Below, piece by piece: positions 1 to 9,414 of a stretch of 20,384 bases of DNA. The first letter of the stretch is position 1; each line of letters begins with the position of its first letter. The DNA lies in IMG/VR virus record IMGVR_UViG_3300044732_000968, positions 1 to 20,384 of that record; one strand, 5' to 3'. Under the pieces are notes generated by a model. That model saw nothing but the letters and a program-made list of their open reading frames with translations, was not told the DNA's origin and did not search any database. The DNA is from a virus. The translations under genes were made by a program, and so were the position numbers.

Positions 1-70
1 TTGAGTTGGTTGTGTTTGGGGTACGACCAGATATAGTGGTACGCTTGAACTGAATCTTATTATTAGCCAT
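1..70 (-). CDS. Start of a fibre-like structural protein, cut by left window edge
   Basis: Read on the minus strand from the ATG at 70-68, an open frame runs off the left edge and gives 23 codons beginning MANNKIQFKRTTISGR, followed by TPNTTNS. This Lys-Ile-Gln-x-Lys-Arg start followed by a Ser/Thr/Pro-rich stretch is typical of the N-termini of T4-like fibre and tail appendage proteins. It also resembles the start of the fibre protein at 2962-4452 (MANLIQIKRSETTATP). A good Shine-Dalgarno sequence (GGAGAG, 80-75) stands 4 bases before the ATG, and a perfect T4-type late promoter lies 65 bases upstream. The gene continues the minus-strand structural series that the plus-strand glycosyltransferase cassette interrupts. 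Only the first residues are visible, so the exact family is inferred. Confidence 0.72.
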   Translation of the reverse strand, partial: MANNKIQFKRTTISGRTPNTTNS

Positions 71-74
71 GTGG

Positions 75-80
75 CTCTCC
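75..80 (-). promoter_or_regulatory. Ribosome binding site of the left-edge fibre gene
   Basis: The minus strand reads GGAGAG, then CCAC, then ATG. It is the strongest Shine-Dalgarno match seen in this region and supports the ATG at 70 as a real start, although only 23 codons are visible. Confidence 0.7.
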
Positions 81-86
81 AAAAGC

Positions 87-98
87 AGATATATATCT
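87..98. repeat. 12-bp perfect palindrome in the divergent spacer
   Basis: AGATATATATCT equals its own reverse complement. It lies between the two divergent genes, inside the predicted leader of the leftward late transcript. It could be a protein-binding site or simply an AT-rich chance palindrome. Confidence 0.4.
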
Positions 99-105
99 TA
101 CAGGC

Positions 106-119
106 CAACTATTTAGTTG
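106..119. repeat. Inverted repeat overlapping the -35 box (possible operator)
   Basis: CAACTA, two bases, then TAGTTG form a perfect 6-bp inverted repeat. Its right half shares TTG with the -35 hexamer of the rightward promoter (117-122), a usual position for a repressor site. In the leftward transcript the same bases could form a small hairpin of 5 bp with a 4-base loop. Function is inferred from position only. Confidence 0.4.
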
Positions 120-144
120 ACTTAATTACAATTCTATTTATAAT
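117..144 (+). promoter_or_regulatory. Sigma70-type promoter for the glycosyltransferase pair
   Basis: The plus strand has TTGACT (117-122) as -35, a 16-base spacer and a perfect TATAAT (139-144) as -10. The expected transcription start, about 7 bases past the -10, falls at 150-151, which is the first base of the ATG at 151. The transcript would therefore be leaderless or nearly so. A host-type promoter suggests the glycosyltransferases are made before the late genes. The -10 shares bases 139-142 with a late promoter on the other strand. Confidence 0.65.
135..142 (-). promoter_or_regulatory. T4-type late promoter, perfect TATAAATA
   Basis: The minus strand reads TATAAATA at 142-135, an exact match to the T4 late promoter consensus, which needs no -35 box and uses the phage sigma factor gp55. 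It lies 65 bases before the ATG of the left-edge fibre gene, giving a leader of nearly 60 bases that contains the two palindromes. Confidence 0.7.
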
Positions 145-150
145 GGGACA

Positions 151-2187
151 ATGATGAGAATAGCTTTTATTGACACACTCGGTTCACCTTATGATGGTTC
201 CACTCTCACAAAGAGAGGTCTTGGAGGATCTGAGTCAGCCGTCATTCGAATGTCCGAAGAACTAGCAAAGCTAGGATTTGATGTGACTGTCTATAACGAC
301 TGTGCATCAGATGATGCAGTGCCTGGTGAGTACAACAATGTGCTATACACTCCTATAGAAAGCATGGGCTCATATACCAAGACATACGATGTTGCAATCG
401 TTTCTCGTTCTGTGAAGCCGATTGCAAACGGTTGGGAGCCAATTATGAGCGCCAAGCATGTCTGCCTTTGGATGCATGACACGTTCTGTGAAGACGATGA
501 TCAGATCGAGTATCTAATTAACATCGGACATCTGAACGAAATCTTCACACTATCGGATTGGCATACAGGCTATGTCACTCACTGTGATCATGGCTTCCGC
601 CGTAACTATGATGTTCTGAAGAGTCACGTCTTCATGACTCGCAATGGTATCGGCAACATGAATCCTGGATGGATTGATGTTCGTGATAAGGATCCTAACC
701 TTTTTGTCTTCAATGCTTCTGTCACAAAGGGAATGATTCCTCTTGTAAAGCAGATTTGGCCAGAGGTCAAGCGTAGGATCCCCGATGCTAAGTTGAAGGT
801 CGTTGGTGGATACTATAAGCTCCGCCAAGCCGAAGGTCCTGATAAGCAAGAGCAGGACTGGACCGATCTCATGGTCAACTATGGCGCTGACATTGAGTTC
901 ACTGGTGTTATCTCTCAGCAAGAGATCTCGGATATCCTTTGCAAAGCCTCCTACATGATCTATCCTGCAGGACAACCAGAGACATTTGGTATCTCTACTC
1001 TTGAGGCTCTCGCTCATAATGTTCCGTTGATCACATGTCAGTTTGCAGCACTCGAAGAAACTGCAATTGATCTGGCATCATGGAAGATCAAGTATCCTGT
1101 AGAACCTAACTGGGCTATGCAATGGCTTAATCAAGACCACCAGGTCAAACTATTTGTTGATAAGGTCGTAGAGGCTTATAACACACCCTACCTACACCAG
1201 CAGAAGATGTATGCGTGTAATCAGGTAAAGGATATCTGTACATGGGATACGGTTGCCCTACAATGGAAGCAGCATTTGTATAAGAAGCTCGGTAAGTATT
1301 TGCCAATCGAAGAATACCGTAAGGTCACAAAGATCAACGATAAGGTTCGTAGAGTCTTCAATCGTCGCTTTATGAATACCGAAGAGCTGCAGCCAGCAAA
1401 GATCTCGGATGAAAAATCTATTGCTGTCATTACACCTGTCTACAATGCAGAGGCATATATTGAAAGATGTATTCTATCTGTAGCTCAACAAGACTATACT
1501 GACTATCACATGTACATTATTGACGATTGCTCAACAGACAATACAGTAAAGGTCGCAAAGGAAACTATTGCTTCACTTCCAGAATGGCAGCGTTACTACT
1601 TTAGTGTTTATAAAAATGAAGAGAATGTTGGAGCTGTTGCAAACCACTTCGATACTATCGAGCAGCTTGTAACCGAACAAGTCGTTATACTTCTTGATGG
1701 TGATGATTCGCTTGTCAATGACCCCTCTATCTTCCATATGTACAACAACCTTTATCATGAGGGTGCAGAGTTTACATATGGATCCTGCTGGTCAATGGTT
1801 GATAATATTCCATTGATTGCACAAGAATATCCACCAGAGGTTAAGGCAAACAAAACCTATCGTGAATATAAGTTCAACTGGAACATGCCATACACACATC
1901 TACGCACGTTCAATACCTCGTTAGTCAAGACCCTTGCAAGAGAGGATCTGCAGATCGATGGTGAGTGGCCAAGAGCTGGTGGAGACACTGCATTGTTCTA
2001 CTACTTGTTAGAGAAAGCTGATCCAGAAAAGGTTGTCTGCGTAACAGATATCGTGTATAACTACAATGACATGAACCCCCTGAACGACTACAAAGTCAAC
2101 TCAGACGAGCAGACAGCAACTTCTCAGAAGATTATTGCTAAACCATCTCCGTTCCTTCCAGGACAGATTGATTTGAGACCTCTATGA
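151..2187 (+). CDS. Two-domain glycosyltransferase (GT-B/GT4-like fused to GT-A/GT2-like)
   Basis: This 678-residue protein joins two glycosyltransferase modules. Residues 1 to about 385 look like a GT-B family 4 enzyme: the glycine-rich donor-side loop GLGGSES (23-29), a second Rossmann half starting near FVFNASVTKG (185-194), and PETFGISTLEAL (276-287), whose E277 and E285 form the EX7E motif that contacts the sugar nucleotide. Residues about 422-678 are a GT-A family 2 module, with PVYNAE (429-434), IIDDCSTDNT (456-465), the metal-binding DGDD (516-519) and a late GGDTALF acidic segment. No signal peptide or membrane helix is visible, so it should be cytoplasmic. Start ATG151 (or ATG154) has no clear Shine-Dalgarno but lies about 7 bases past a -10 box, so leaderless translation is possible. 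It overlaps the next gene by ATGA. The acceptor is unknown: host envelope sugars, phage DNA or virion proteins are all possible. Confidence 0.85.
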   Translation: MMRIAFIDTLGSPYDGSTLTKRGLGGSESAVIRMSEELAKLGFDVTVYNDCASDDAVPGEYNNVLYTPIESMGSYTKTYDVAIVSRSVKPIANGWEPIMSAKHVCLWMHDTFCEDDDQIEYLINIGHLNEIFTLSDWHTGYVTHCDHGFRRNYDVLKSHVFMTRNGIGNMNPGWIDVRDKDPNLFVFNASVTKGMIPLVKQIWPEVKRRIPDAKLKVVGGYYKLRQAEGPDKQEQDWTDLMVNYGADIEFTGVISQQEISDILCKASYMIYPAGQPETFGISTLEALAHNVPLITCQFAALEETAIDLASWKIKYPVEPNWAMQWLNQDHQVKLFVDKVVEAYNTPYLHQQKMYACNQVKDICTWDTVALQWKQHLYKKLGKYLPIEEYRKVTKINDKVRRVFNRRFMNTEELQPAKISDEKSIAVITPVYNAEAYIERCILSVAQQDYTDYHMYIIDDCSTDNTVKVAKETIASLPEWQRYYFSVYKNEENVGAVANHFDTIEQLVTEQVVILLDGDDSLVNDPSIFHMYNNLYHEGAEFTYGSCWSMVDNIPLIAQEYPPEVKANKTYREYKFNWNMPYTHLRTFNTSLVKTLAREDLQIDGEWPRAGGDTALFYYLLEKADPEKVVCVTDIVYNYNDMNPLNDYKVNSDEQTATSQKIIAKPSPFLPGQIDLRPL

Positions 2188-2783
2188 AAAAGATCCTGAT
2201 TGCCATTCCTACTGCTCGCTACATCGAGGCAGAGACCTTCAAGTCAATCTATGATCTGGAGGTTCCGGAAGGATACGAGGTTACCTTTCAGTACTTCTAT
2301 GGATACAGAGTCGATCAGGTCCGCAATCTGATTGCTGACTGGGTTGTTCGTGGCTTCGACTATCTGTTCTCTGTCGATCACGACATCACGTTTCCATCAG
2401 ACACACTAAACAAACTTCTGGCGCACGACAAGGATCTTGTGTCAGGAGTCTATAGACAAAGACTCGAGCCACAGATGCTTGAGGTCTATGAGCCGTTCGG
2501 TACAAGAATGTCTGCAGAAGATCTATATGCGAAGGACTGGCAGCTAGTCGGAATCGGCGGCTGTGGCTTCGGTTGTGTGCTGGTGAAGAAAGAGGTATTG
2601 GTGGGCGTTGGATATCCGCAGTTCGAATATCACCACGCACTAAACCACAACGATACAATCAGCGAGGATACAGACTTCTGTAAGAAGGCCCTTGCCAAAG
2701 GCTTTAGGTTGTGGTGTGACCCATCAATTCGTTGTGGTCACATTGGATCCACAACTATGGTTGTAGAGATTCCGAAGGTTTAG
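2184..2783 (+). CDS. Small GT-A-type glycosyltransferase
   Basis: A 199-residue protein with a GT-A-type layout. It has a beta-strand start KKILIAIPT (2-10), an RN pair (47-48) often seen in phage members of this group, the DxD-like VDHD (64-67) expected to hold the metal and sugar nucleotide, and a glycine/cysteine segment GGCGFGCV (125-132). It also has SEDTDFCKKA (160-169) followed by GHIG (185-188), resembling the catalytic acid and the late histidine motif of the family. It is short for a glycosyltransferase but carries all core motifs and no membrane segment. Its ATG overlaps the stop of the preceding gene (ATGA), implying translational coupling and joint function. Its last 29 bases overlap, tail to tail, the minus-strand gene ending at 2755, and no terminator is seen between them. 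The acceptor is not deducible. Confidence 0.75.
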   Translation: MKKILIAIPTARYIEAETFKSIYDLEVPEGYEVTFQYFYGYRVDQVRNLIADWVVRGFDYLFSVDHDITFPSDTLNKLLAHDKDLVSGVYRQRLEPQMLEVYEPFGTRMSAEDLYAKDWQLVGIGGCGFGCVLVKKEVLVGVGYPQFEYHHALNHNDTISEDTDFCKKALAKGFRLWCDPSIRCGHIGSTTMVVEIPKV

Positions 2784-6902: not shown

Positions 6903-9230
6903 TTACTTGATCAGATGTGCAACGACTTTAACAGCCGAGTTGTTTCTCAGCTGAGCCATTGTGATGTCTACGTTAGCGCCATTAACAGCTGCAGTGAATG
7001 TTCCGAGAGGAGCTACTGTGTTCGCTCCGCCTGATGATGGAGGAGAAGCCACAACGCCATAGACAGCAACATATGCGTCCGTTCCATCGTGAGCAACGAC
7101 CATCTCAGCGATCTGGTTGTTACCAGCGTTTGATGCTTGAACCATCAGCTTACCTGTTCTGTAGGTAGCCTTAGGGAAGCTATAGATCAGTCTCGGTGAA
7201 GCAGTCGTTCCGATATCGGCGATAGCAACTACATCGATGACATAGTCAGAGTTGATGGTTGCGTTACCACCGATAACTGTATTGCCTACAAGGTTTGATG
7301 TACCCGAGACTCTTAAATTGCCACCAACGTTTGCAGTGCCAGTGAGGTTGAGGAAGCCACCGATTGTAGCATTCGTACCAACTCCAAGAGTTGTCCCCAC
7401 GTTCGCTGTTGTAGATACATCCACGAACCCTGTGATTGATGTGTTACCAAGCGAAGCTGTATTAGCTACAATCAGCTGACCGTTTGCAACAACATTGGCT
7501 CGGAAGTTCGCAACGCCGCCAACATTTGCCGTTGTCGATACATTGATGAAACCTGTAAGGCTAGTATTACCACCAGCGATTGTGGTTCCTACTTGTAGCG
7601 ATCCAGCAACGTTTGCAGAAGATGAAACGTTAATGAACCCTGTTACAGTCGTGTTACCTGTGTCGAGGGTGTTGTTGATAGTAACTGTGCCACCAGCAAC
7701 TGTAGTTCCAGTAATTGCAACGTTACCAACAAGGTTTGATGTGCCTGTGACTCTTAAATTGCCGCCAACGTTTGCAGCACCTGTAAGGTTAAGGAATCCA
7801 CCAATCGTTGCGTTAGTGCCAACTCCAAGAGTCGTTCCTACGTTCGCTGTTGTGGATACGTCAATGAAACCAGTAACTGTTGTGTTGCCAAGTGAAGCAG
7901 TATTGGCTACAATCAACTGACCATTAGCTACTACGTTAGCTCTGAAGGTTGCAATACCACCAACGTTAGCAGTGGTCGCAACGTTAAGGAAGCCGCCAAT
8001 GGTAGCGTTTGTACCTACAGTGATTGTGGATCCGACATTAACAGCTGCAGATACGTTAGCAGAACCAGTGATGTCAAATGCTACAGTAGGTGTTGAGGTG
8101 TTGATACCTACTCTATTCGTAGCCGCGTCTACAAACAATGTTCCAGCGTCAATGTTGACGTTACCAGTAATTGTATGCAGAGTTCCGACGATAGCAGCGT
8201 TTGCCGCAACGTTGAATGCCGTTCCACCAATTGCTGTGTTAGTAGCAGTAGAGTTACCTGTGATAGTAATTGCTGATACAGATGTGTTCGAGCGAAACAC
8301 CTGGCTGGCAGCAGTTACTGAAAGATTAGCTGTTGACGTTACAGACGTGCCTGTGATACCAACGTTAGCAGCAATGTTGAAATCTGTACCACCAATAGCC
8401 GTATTAGTTGCTGTCGAGTTACCTACAATCGATACCGCTGTAACTGATGAATTAGACTTAAATACTTGGGAGTTAGCAGTTGATACTAAGTTAGCTGATG
8501 ATGTTACAGCAGCTCCCGTAATAACTACGTTGGCTGATAGAGCAGCATTTGAGGTGATATTAAGATCTGTTCCGCCAATTGTAGTATTGGTAGCCGTCGA
8601 GTTACCAGCAATTGAAACAGCAGTTACAGAAGAGTTAGACTTAAATACTTGTGAAGCAGCTGTTGAAGTAATATTAGCCGATGAAGTGATAGCCGAACCA
8701 GTTACAGCAACATTAGCAGCAATGTTGAGGTCTGTGCCTCCAACCGCAGTGTTGGTTGCAGTTGAGTTACCAGTGATAGCAATAGCTGTGATAGATGAGT
8801 TAGATTTGAACGACTGAGTGTTCGATGTAACAGTAATAACTCTTGCCGTTGCTACTACATTAGATGTAATGTCTAGCTGCGTGCCGTTAATGAAAACGTT
8901 TGCACCGGTAGCTGCAATATTGGCTGTGAATGTAGTATTAGAAGCAACATTGACTGCTGCTCCTGTGAATACGGTATTGGAAATGATTTCTAGATTAGCA
9001 GCAGTGCTAGTAGTGCCACCACGAAGAGCAGTTTCAGCAATCAGTGTGTTAGCAGCAAAGCTACCATACAATCTTGCGTTGCGCTGAGCTGCTGTAGTGC
9101 CCGTGTTTGCAAAGGTAGCATTGGCAGTGATTACTTCTGTCGACAACGCATCGAGCAGCTGATTGGTACGGATGACCCATGTACCAAATGTTTCTGTGGT
9201 TGTGTCAACATTAGCTACATATCTAGCCAT
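6903..9230 (-). CDS. Repetitive tail fibre-like structural protein (775 aa)
   Basis: The head (1-140) starts MARYVANVDTTTETFGTWVI, a start often seen in T4-like appendage proteins. Residues 141 to about 350 hold four imperfect copies of a 55-61 residue unit (FKSNSS, then GNSTATNT, then IGGTDLNIAANV). A second repeat field follows, with strand-turn units such as VGTNATIGGFLN and TGFINVSTTANV, including an 80-residue duplication 147 residues apart. The final ~110 residues form a distinct domain, including FPKATYRTGKLMVQ, EMVVAHDGTDAY and the end VKVVAHLIK, a known conserved C-terminus of marine T4-like fibre proteins. The middle probably folds as an elongated beta-solenoid or trimeric fibre. 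AGGA lies 8 bases before the ATG, within the end of the preceding gene. There are many Asn-x-Ser/Thr sites. Receptor and partner are unknown. Confidence 0.8.
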   Translation of the reverse strand: MARYVANVDTTTETFGTWVIRTNQLLDALSTEVITANATFANTGTTAAQRNARLYGSFAANTLIAETALRGGTTSTAANLEIISNTVFTGAAVNVASNTTFTANIAATGANVFINGTQLDITSNVVATARVITVTSNTQSFKSNSSITAIAITGNSTATNTAVGGTDLNIAANVAVTGSAITSSANITSTAASQVFKSNSSVTAVSIAGNSTATNTTIGGTDLNITSNAALSANVVITGAAVTSSANLVSTANSQVFKSNSSVTAVSIVGNSTATNTAIGGTDFNIAANVGITGTSVTSTANLSVTAASQVFRSNTSVSAITITGNSTATNTAIGGTAFNVAANAAIVGTLHTITGNVNIDAGTLFVDAATNRVGINTSTPTVAFDITGSANVSAAVNVGSTITVGTNATIGGFLNVATTANVGGIATFRANVVANGQLIVANTASLGNTTVTGFIDVSTTANVGTTLGVGTNATIGGFLNLTGAANVGGNLRVTGTSNLVGNVAITGTTVAGGTVTINNTLDTGNTTVTGFINVSSSANVAGSLQVGTTIAGGNTSLTGFINVSTTANVGGVANFRANVVANGQLIVANTASLGNTSITGFVDVSTTANVGTTLGVGTNATIGGFLNLTGTANVGGNLRVSGTSNLVGNTVIGGNATINSDYVIDVVAIADIGTTASPRLIYSFPKATYRTGKLMVQASNAGNNQIAEMVVAHDGTDAYVAVYGVVASPPSSGGANTVAPLGTFTAAVNGANVDITMAQLRNNSAVKVVAHLIK
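7288..7529 (-). repeat. Direct repeat copy 2 in the 775-aa fibre gene
   Basis: About 242 bases nearly repeat 7729-7970, offset by 441 bases (147 codons). The protein copies differ at few residues, such as LTGTANVGG against LTGAANVGG, while many third codon positions differ. The duplication is therefore not recent, or the protein is under constraint. Confidence 0.8.
7729..7970 (-). repeat. Direct repeat copy 1 in the 775-aa fibre gene
   Basis: Partner of the repeat at 7288-7529. Both encode FRANVVANGQLIVANTASLG and then TTLGVGTNATIGGFLNLTG. Being in frame and the same length, the pair could recombine to shorten or lengthen the fibre by 147 residues. Confidence 0.8.
8181..8810 (-). repeat. Four imperfect 55-61 residue repeats in the fibre shaft
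   Basis: Units start at residues 141, 196, 257 and 312. Each has F(K/R)SN(S/T)S, an Ile/Val-rich strand, an invariant GNSTATNT, then GGT and NIAAN or a close variant. The second unit carries a six-residue insertion (near ALSANV). The fourth fades after about residue 350. The regular spacing suggests one solenoid or fibre-knob element per unit. Confidence 0.8.
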
Positions 9231-9231
9231 C

Positions 9232-9414
9232 TTAATTCCTGTTAATAACTTGAGCCAGTAGGGCTTTGATTTCTGTCAGCTCGTTCTTGAGGCTATTTAC
9301 TTCCTCAGAGACTTCTCGAGACCTTTTATCGGCCTCGCGTTGACCGAGTAGAGCCTTATAATAACTATCATCAGTATTTATAAGGATGCCCTGTGAGTCC
9401 CTGATAAAAGACAT
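9232..9414 (-). CDS. Small coiled-coil protein (60 aa), unknown function
   Basis: A 60-residue protein, MSFIRDSQGILINTDDSYYK at the start. It is followed by a charged linker (QREADKRSREV) and a C-terminal heptad pattern (VNSLKNELTEIKALLAQVI) that predicts a short coiled coil. Small proteins with a RDxxGxxxNTD start and a zipper-like end are frequent beside structural genes in marine T4-like phages; their role is not established. Its ATG overlaps the stop of the 722-residue gene as TAATG, and its stop is 1 base from the next ATG, so it is coupled on both sides. The sequence also holds a perfect late promoter at 9375-9382. Confidence 0.72.
   Translation of the reverse strand: MSFIRDSQGILINTDDSYYKALLGQREADKRSREVSEEVNSLKNELTEIKALLAQVINRN
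9375..9382 (-). promoter_or_regulatory. T4-type late promoter, perfect TATAAATA, inside the 60-aa gene
   Basis: The minus strand reads TATAAATA at 9382-9375. It lies within codons for Leu-Ile-Asn-Thr of the small gene and about 145 bases before the ATG of the 775-residue fibre gene, which would let the fibre genes be transcribed without the baseplate genes upstream. Confidence 0.6.

Follow-up and report, generated by a model that had tools for sequence, protein, structure and literature searches.

What the 80-base spacer between two divergent sets of genes in an uncultured phage is built to control is the question raised by this locus. An earlier note on the same DNA had seen in it overlapping promoters of two classes, which could act as an early/late switch, and two repeats as possible additional control sites. 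Judged from comparison with related sequences, the spacer is probably understood as the 5' control region of a late fibre gene, in which an array of hairpins with the loop ANAU constitutes a putative translational operator, with a glycosyltransferase pair and its own sigma70-type promoter lying alongside. The window (the whole stretch of 20,384 nucleotides analysed here) is a piece of a T4-type phage and encodes a baseplate wedge protein (phrog_438); a search for a cultured phage near-identical to it found none. The genes on either side of the spacer are as follows.

1-70, minus strand: 5' end of the fibre gene (23 codons in the window; N-terminus MANNKIQFKRT; collagen repeats)
154-2187, plus strand: glycosyltransferase, 678 aa, with GT group 1 and GT family 2 domains
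2184-2783, plus strand: second rightward gene, glycosyltransferase-like, 199 aa (phrog_1574, E 1.5e-23; phrog_12406, E 2.4e-5)

Tail fibres determine host range. The leftward gene begins with ATG at 70-68 (minus strand) and can be followed for 1640 aa in a longer, near-identical contig, until that contig ends. Its reading as a fibre gene in the earlier note is borne out by the copy in a related locus (L001), which matches Pfam Collagen (E 1e-33) and a PHROG tail fiber family. The N-terminal motif is common to T4 gp37, which begins MATLKQIQFKRSKIAG..GELAINLKD, and the N-terminal domain matches T4-type genes annotated as long distal tail fibre at E values from 1e-3 to 2e-7; the N-terminus is thus of the gp37 type, and the gene would encode a putative distal long tail fibre. 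The same N-terminus was sought in bacterial genomes, as a sign of prophages, and none was found. The description of the rightward genes as glycosyltransferases holds for the first, by its domains, and less well for the second, which is only weakly glycosyltransferase-like: phrog_12406 is a glycosyltransferase family, phrog_1574 is annotated as of unknown function. The first gene has a conserved start at 154 and a further in-frame ATG at 151. When used as query in IMG/VR, the glycosyltransferase returned 80 loci, 57-100% identical, whose spacers were compared; the sequences counted here and below are related to one another, and the counts do not represent independent events. A second search employed the fibre N-terminus as query in place of the glycosyltransferase.

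Every motif of the promoters described earlier is present, read from the sequence, at the position then given.

117-122, plus strand: -35 element TTGACT of the rightward promoter, formed by the right arm of the hairpin HP1 (see below)
139-144, plus strand: -10 element TATAAT, 16 bases after the -35; positions 139-142 are common with the late box
135-142, minus strand: T4-type late promoter box TATAAATA, leftward, with a predicted start near 129

The sigma70 match (11 of 12 positions) is the best among 29 in the 20 kb, a total number equal to that in shuffles, and has p 0.002 within the spacer. The box TATAAATA occurs twice in the window (0.51 expected). Its other copy, at 9375-9382 (minus strand), is intragenic, some 145 nt ahead of the first codon of the open reading frame ending at 6903, and recurs in a relative (L169:3764). 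In 20 diverged spacers, both promoter types were scored on both strands against dinucleotide shuffles: the rightward sigma70 promoter gave a combined p of 3e-8 (opposite-strand control 0.99) and the leftward box one of 1e-9 (control 0.55). The 224 kb of relatives plus the window contain 30 copies of TATAAATA, 18 of which lie between genes, as compared with 0-7 for permuted octamers, and in the relatives the box marks intergenic starts of genes. Two relatives carrying the spacer encode a homologue of gp55 (phrog_234, E 2.5e-60 and 6e-61), the window being a 20-kb fragment; this accords with the gp55-type polymerase invoked in the earlier note. Strand-correct conservation, the intergenic placement of TATAAATA and gp55 in spacer-bearing contigs together make it very likely that both promoters are real. 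The claim of divergent promoters of two classes thus stands: the right polarity is kept in the 20 diverged spacers, and the comparison among related phages that had been suggested finds both boxes conserved. The late box resembles the T4 late promoters (gp55/gp33/gp45) in its sequence, its intergenic location ahead of structural genes and the gp55 homologue in relatives, and differs from them in that, in the clade of the window, it overlaps a sigma70 -10 element in opposite orientation.

The overlap invites the reading of an occlusion switch, in which host polymerase would fire to the right early and the gp55 polymerase would later occupy the shared site, fire to the left and shut off the glycosyltransferases. 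Conservation of both promoters with correct polarity speaks for it, as do the gp55 genes of relatives and the bases shared by the -10 element and the late box in the window clade, the L028 clade and L075. The sharing of 139-142, real in the window, varies between lineages as the elements shift relative to each other: there is no gap between them in L063 and L066, a gap of 2-7 nt in L070 and L055 and one of 17 nt in L065, and their order is reversed in L044 and L050. Among relatives keeping both genes, no conservation of base sharing was found; what is kept is closeness. Moreover, a late/late overlap, TATTTATAAATA, occurs elsewhere in relatives; AT precedes 3 of 17 other intergenic late boxes, creating TATAAT on the opposite strand there too; and temporal classes alone would keep both promoters apart. 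An occlusion switch as the function of the spacer is, on balance, somewhat unlikely. Occlusion may contribute a one-way bias, but it is not what is conserved. The TATTTATAAATA sites are two late promoters overlapping back to back with four bases in common, and are found at L174:7342-7353, at L176:13426-13437 and in the cultured cyanophage Sf-CH8 (L515, about 455-466).

The repeats of the spacer, when read on the strand of the fibre mRNA, resolve into three hairpins around the signals for translation initiation.

104-121, minus strand: HP1, GUCAACUAAAUAGUUGGC, 7-bp stem with one U-G pair, loop AAAU at 114-111
87-98, minus strand: HP2, AGAUAUAUAUCU, stem 98-95/90-87, loop AUAU at 94-91
77-80, minus strand: Shine-Dalgarno sequence GGAG of the fibre gene, between HP2 and HP3
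65-76, minus strand: HP3, start-codon hairpin AGCC-ACAU-GGCU, whose loop (72-69) contains the A and U of the fibre AUG at 70-68

HP1 was noted before as a 14-base inverted repeat, CAACTATTTAGTTG, at 106-119; the repeat is there, and its real extent is 104-121 once the G-U pair on the minus strand is admitted. HP2 corresponds to the 12-base palindrome AGATATATATCT at 87-98, likewise present though not as a control site of the promoter pair; it occurs once in the window and once per contig in relatives of up to 81 kb, always at the same position. The third hairpin, at 76-65, had been missed.

In the loci adjacent to a glycosyltransferase, HP1 is 93% paired, with a covariation of 0.55 versus 0.22 when shuffled, and HP2 is 98% paired, its arms covarying around an invariant centre TATATA. 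For rows picked solely for the loop at a fixed distance (set A7), with no selection on the stem, the inner three HP2 pairs are formed in 65 of 66 cells and all four Watson-Crick types are represented. Hairpins are present at 60 of 68 fibre starts as against 1.25 in shuffles. The loops TATATA, TAAATA, TAGATA and TACATA made up nearly all of an agnostic tally of hairpins upstream of fibre starts, from which their complements TATTTA, TATCTA and TATGTA were absent. In a larger set, asymmetric loops numbered 41 in the sense and 0 in the antisense orientation, the loop in fibre sense being UANAUA. A dimeric DNA site would be indifferent to strand and an RNA loop is not; the loops have the polarity of an RNA element. 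The balance of G-U versus A-C pairs favours the sense strand mildly (12:8 overall, 7:2 inside stems), and was dropped as sole proof of RNA on account of that mildness.

Position relative to the start codon is as constrained as the loop. Among starts whose nearest upstream hairpin has its centre at a distance of 20-25 nt, GCC-ANAU-GGC surrounds the AUG in 38 of 40; the AUG hairpin is found at none of the 11 starts of the -11 class, in which the last hairpin lies 10-13 nt away and the Shine-Dalgarno sequence is located in a hairpin arm, at none of the 8 starts without hairpins, and at 14 of 1166 control starts (2 of the 180 that begin ATG GC). Where codon 2 specifies Pro instead of Ala, the upstream arm reads GGC instead of GCC, in compensation. 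From these positions in the two classes, the hairpin centres fall at about -42, -22 and 0 or at about -31 and -11; spacing is 19-22 bp at most loci. A stem that covaries on the sense strand and an overlap with the AUG or the Shine-Dalgarno sequence, the two features looked for in a translational operator, were thus both found. The sequence comparison establishes a conserved sense-strand RNA structure that is specific to the fibre gene and captures its initiation signals. A pairing of the 5' flank of HP2 with the Shine-Dalgarno sequence was considered and rejected as weak (z 3.2; at least 4 pairs in 33 of 88 cases, 20.7 expected) and absent in the window.

Specificity for the fibre gene is evident from several sides. 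Contigs without an adjacent glycosyltransferase or divergent promoter still show one or two of these hairpins immediately ahead of the fibre start codon, on wholly different stems, and in contigs of 188, 164, 133, 101 and 84 kb start-proximal UANAUA hairpins stand only ahead of the fibre gene. A scan of IMG/VR DNA for the HP2 loop together with HP3, made without use of the fibre protein sequence, gave at least 114 matches; among the matches listed, 62 form the HP2 stem, and 51 of these 62 precede a fibre N-terminus with KR[TS], the remainder mostly a variant form. Applied to bacterial and archaeal genomes, the pattern yielded one stem in the 129 matches listed. A covariance model (R1) built without the window finds in it a single match, at 101-63 (E 8e-8), and in 0.92 Mb six matches with E<0.01, every one at a fibre start. 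Rfam covariance models found nothing at gathering score in 8 loci and, in window positions 1-400, just an unrelated snoRNA below cut-off. Versions of the array are present in the cultured phages P-SSM2, S-B43, S-CBS2 and DSL-LC02; it was looked for and absent in T4, JSE, P-HM1 and a Vibrio phage. Its absence from T4 and from the enterobacterial and Acinetobacter relatives examined implies that this type of fibre does not require it. In the leaders L520, L518, L574 and L579, from phages with a different fibre subfamily, the HP1 stem is long (6-11 bp) and the loop is the same.

On these grounds, the most likely function of the array, inferred from its sequence, is that of a translational operator acting on fibre synthesis. 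A late transcript running leftward from TATAAATA would have a leader of about 60 nt that forms three hairpins, centred at distances of about 42, 22 and 0 nt from the AUG, each with the tetraloop ANAU on a freely varying stem and the third with the AUG in its loop; the second arrangement, in other phages, would place hairpins at about -31 and -11, with the Shine-Dalgarno sequence in a hairpin arm. A factor recognising ANAU (a phage protein, the fibre itself or an assembly partner) would bind the evenly spaced sites cooperatively and, once bound, mask the AUG or the Shine-Dalgarno sequence and so govern when the fibre is made or in what quantity. By themselves, stems of 3-4 pairs are weak; that of HP2 in the window has 4 pairs, A-U except one, and the folding energy of the window leader is not better than that of shuffles (z -0.9), so help from a protein or the ribosome must be assumed. 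That loop, spacing and enclosed start codon are kept while all stems vary points strongly to a specific binder.

The hairpins could alternatively be elements of mRNA processing or stability, or terminators of the upstream gene, with no part in translational control. They do occupy 5' ends or gaps between cistrons, and the first hairpin of L346 and L360 is rich in GC, with T runs after it, as in a terminator. Most copies, however, have no U tract, the position of the hairpin is tied to the fibre AUG (centre at 20-25 or 10-13), and the hairpin takes in the AUG or the Shine-Dalgarno sequence, all of which renders this explanation unlikely.

A role at the DNA level, in which HP1 and HP2, separated by two helical turns, would be the operators through which a dimeric regulator acts on the divergent promoters, is close to the original view of the repeats as control sites. 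The sites are indeed palindromic and 19-22 bp apart in most loci, and several lineages have the centre of HP1 at a distance of 4 nt from the -35 element. We dropped the proposal, as very improbable, because fibre homologues without glycosyltransferase or divergent promoter still have such repeats; besides, the arms vary freely, the centre is strand-polar in the manner of an RNA element of the fibre strand (TANATA, never TATNTA), and the identical loop is employed around the AUG. There is a parallel in the p4/p6 switch of phi29 at A2c/A2b/A3, where early and late promoters likewise lie close together with inverted repeats between them and the repeats are DNA sites for p4 that switch the promoters (PMC3100819); the repeats of the window differ in that they belong to the fibre mRNA and are also found without a second promoter. 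Repeats beside overlapping promoters can thus resemble operators and yet belong to an mRNA, which corrects the earlier reading.

Least probable of all is a recombination seam for the exchange of fibre modules, similar to the promoter/stem-loop cassettes proposed for T4-type phages: fibre genes of T4 relatives are mosaic (PMC2993671) and L040, L046 and L049 have another gene to the left of a retained HP2, but stem sequences differ among phages and so offer no homology for recombination, while the features kept are loop, spacing and AUG placement. In these three loci the fibre gene was swapped for another, HP2 being intact and HP1 decayed.

As regards the favoured translational operator, there are analogies with known phage systems. 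The replicase hairpin of MS2 is the translational operator of an RNA-phage coat protein, with loop ANYA and the AUG in the stem. In common with it, the fibre array has a short hairpin, a conserved 4-nt loop and a tolerant stem and includes the initiation region of the controlled gene; it differs in having two or three hairpins in register, the loop ANAU and the AUG in the loop, and in belonging to DNA phages, with a fibre gene as target and a putative binder. To our knowledge, structured post-transcriptional control of tail-fibre synthesis has hardly been described in DNA phages. Operators of the RNA-phage coat-protein type are also treated in PMC3561173. RegA repression in T4 likewise acts at or just 5' of the AUG in mRNAs of T4-type phages, with the distinction that RegA sites have no secondary structure and serve some 30 mRNAs (PMC3014915); the fibre array is structured, unlike the unstructured A+U-rich site that defines a RegA operator, and is confined to one late gene. 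No account of such a hairpin array was found in the part of the open-access literature that was searched. Whether ANAU-loop arrays form an undescribed and widespread class of translational operator, read by a putative RNA-binding factor in tailed phages, both T4-type and others, from several environments, we regard as evenly balanced. If so, the array would set the timing or the amount of receptor-binding fibre made across these phages. Because the array recurs ahead of a single kind of fibre gene, not only in many contigs but also in cyanophages held in culture, it is accessible to experiment.

The glycosyltransferase pair was probably the later arrival, since the array exists without it: the most likely course is that the pair came to lie next to a fibre leader already in place and acquired its -35 element from the HP1 arm. 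The rightward promoter would thus borrow that arm and, in the window clade, overlap the late box. A constant distance of 17 bp between HP1 and the rightward -10 was entertained and abandoned, being true in the window clade and weak in others. In this clade, TATAAT lies 8-9 nt ahead of the conserved glycosyltransferase start codon (9 nt in the window), leaving no room for a Shine-Dalgarno sequence, and the rightward mRNA is therefore predicted to be leaderless; it would begin at the AUG or at most 3 nt from it. The cI mRNA of lambda made from PRM is similarly leaderless, its -10 being placed so that transcription begins at the start codon. Promoters of Deinococcus-Thermus with the -10 adjacent to the open reading frame (PMC12340547) also share the principle of a TATAAT that positions the transcription start at the start codon; unlike these cases, the present one concerns a T4-type phage and the window clade only, related and distant lineages having a rightward leader with a Shine-Dalgarno sequence. 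The freshwater cyanophage DSL-LC02 of Synechococcus (OR032571; L753/L761) repeats the layout of the window, with a collagen-like fibre, a late box, hairpins and a mannosyltransferase in divergent orientation, the mannosyltransferase being preceded, as identified by eye, by TTGACA-17-TAGAAT.
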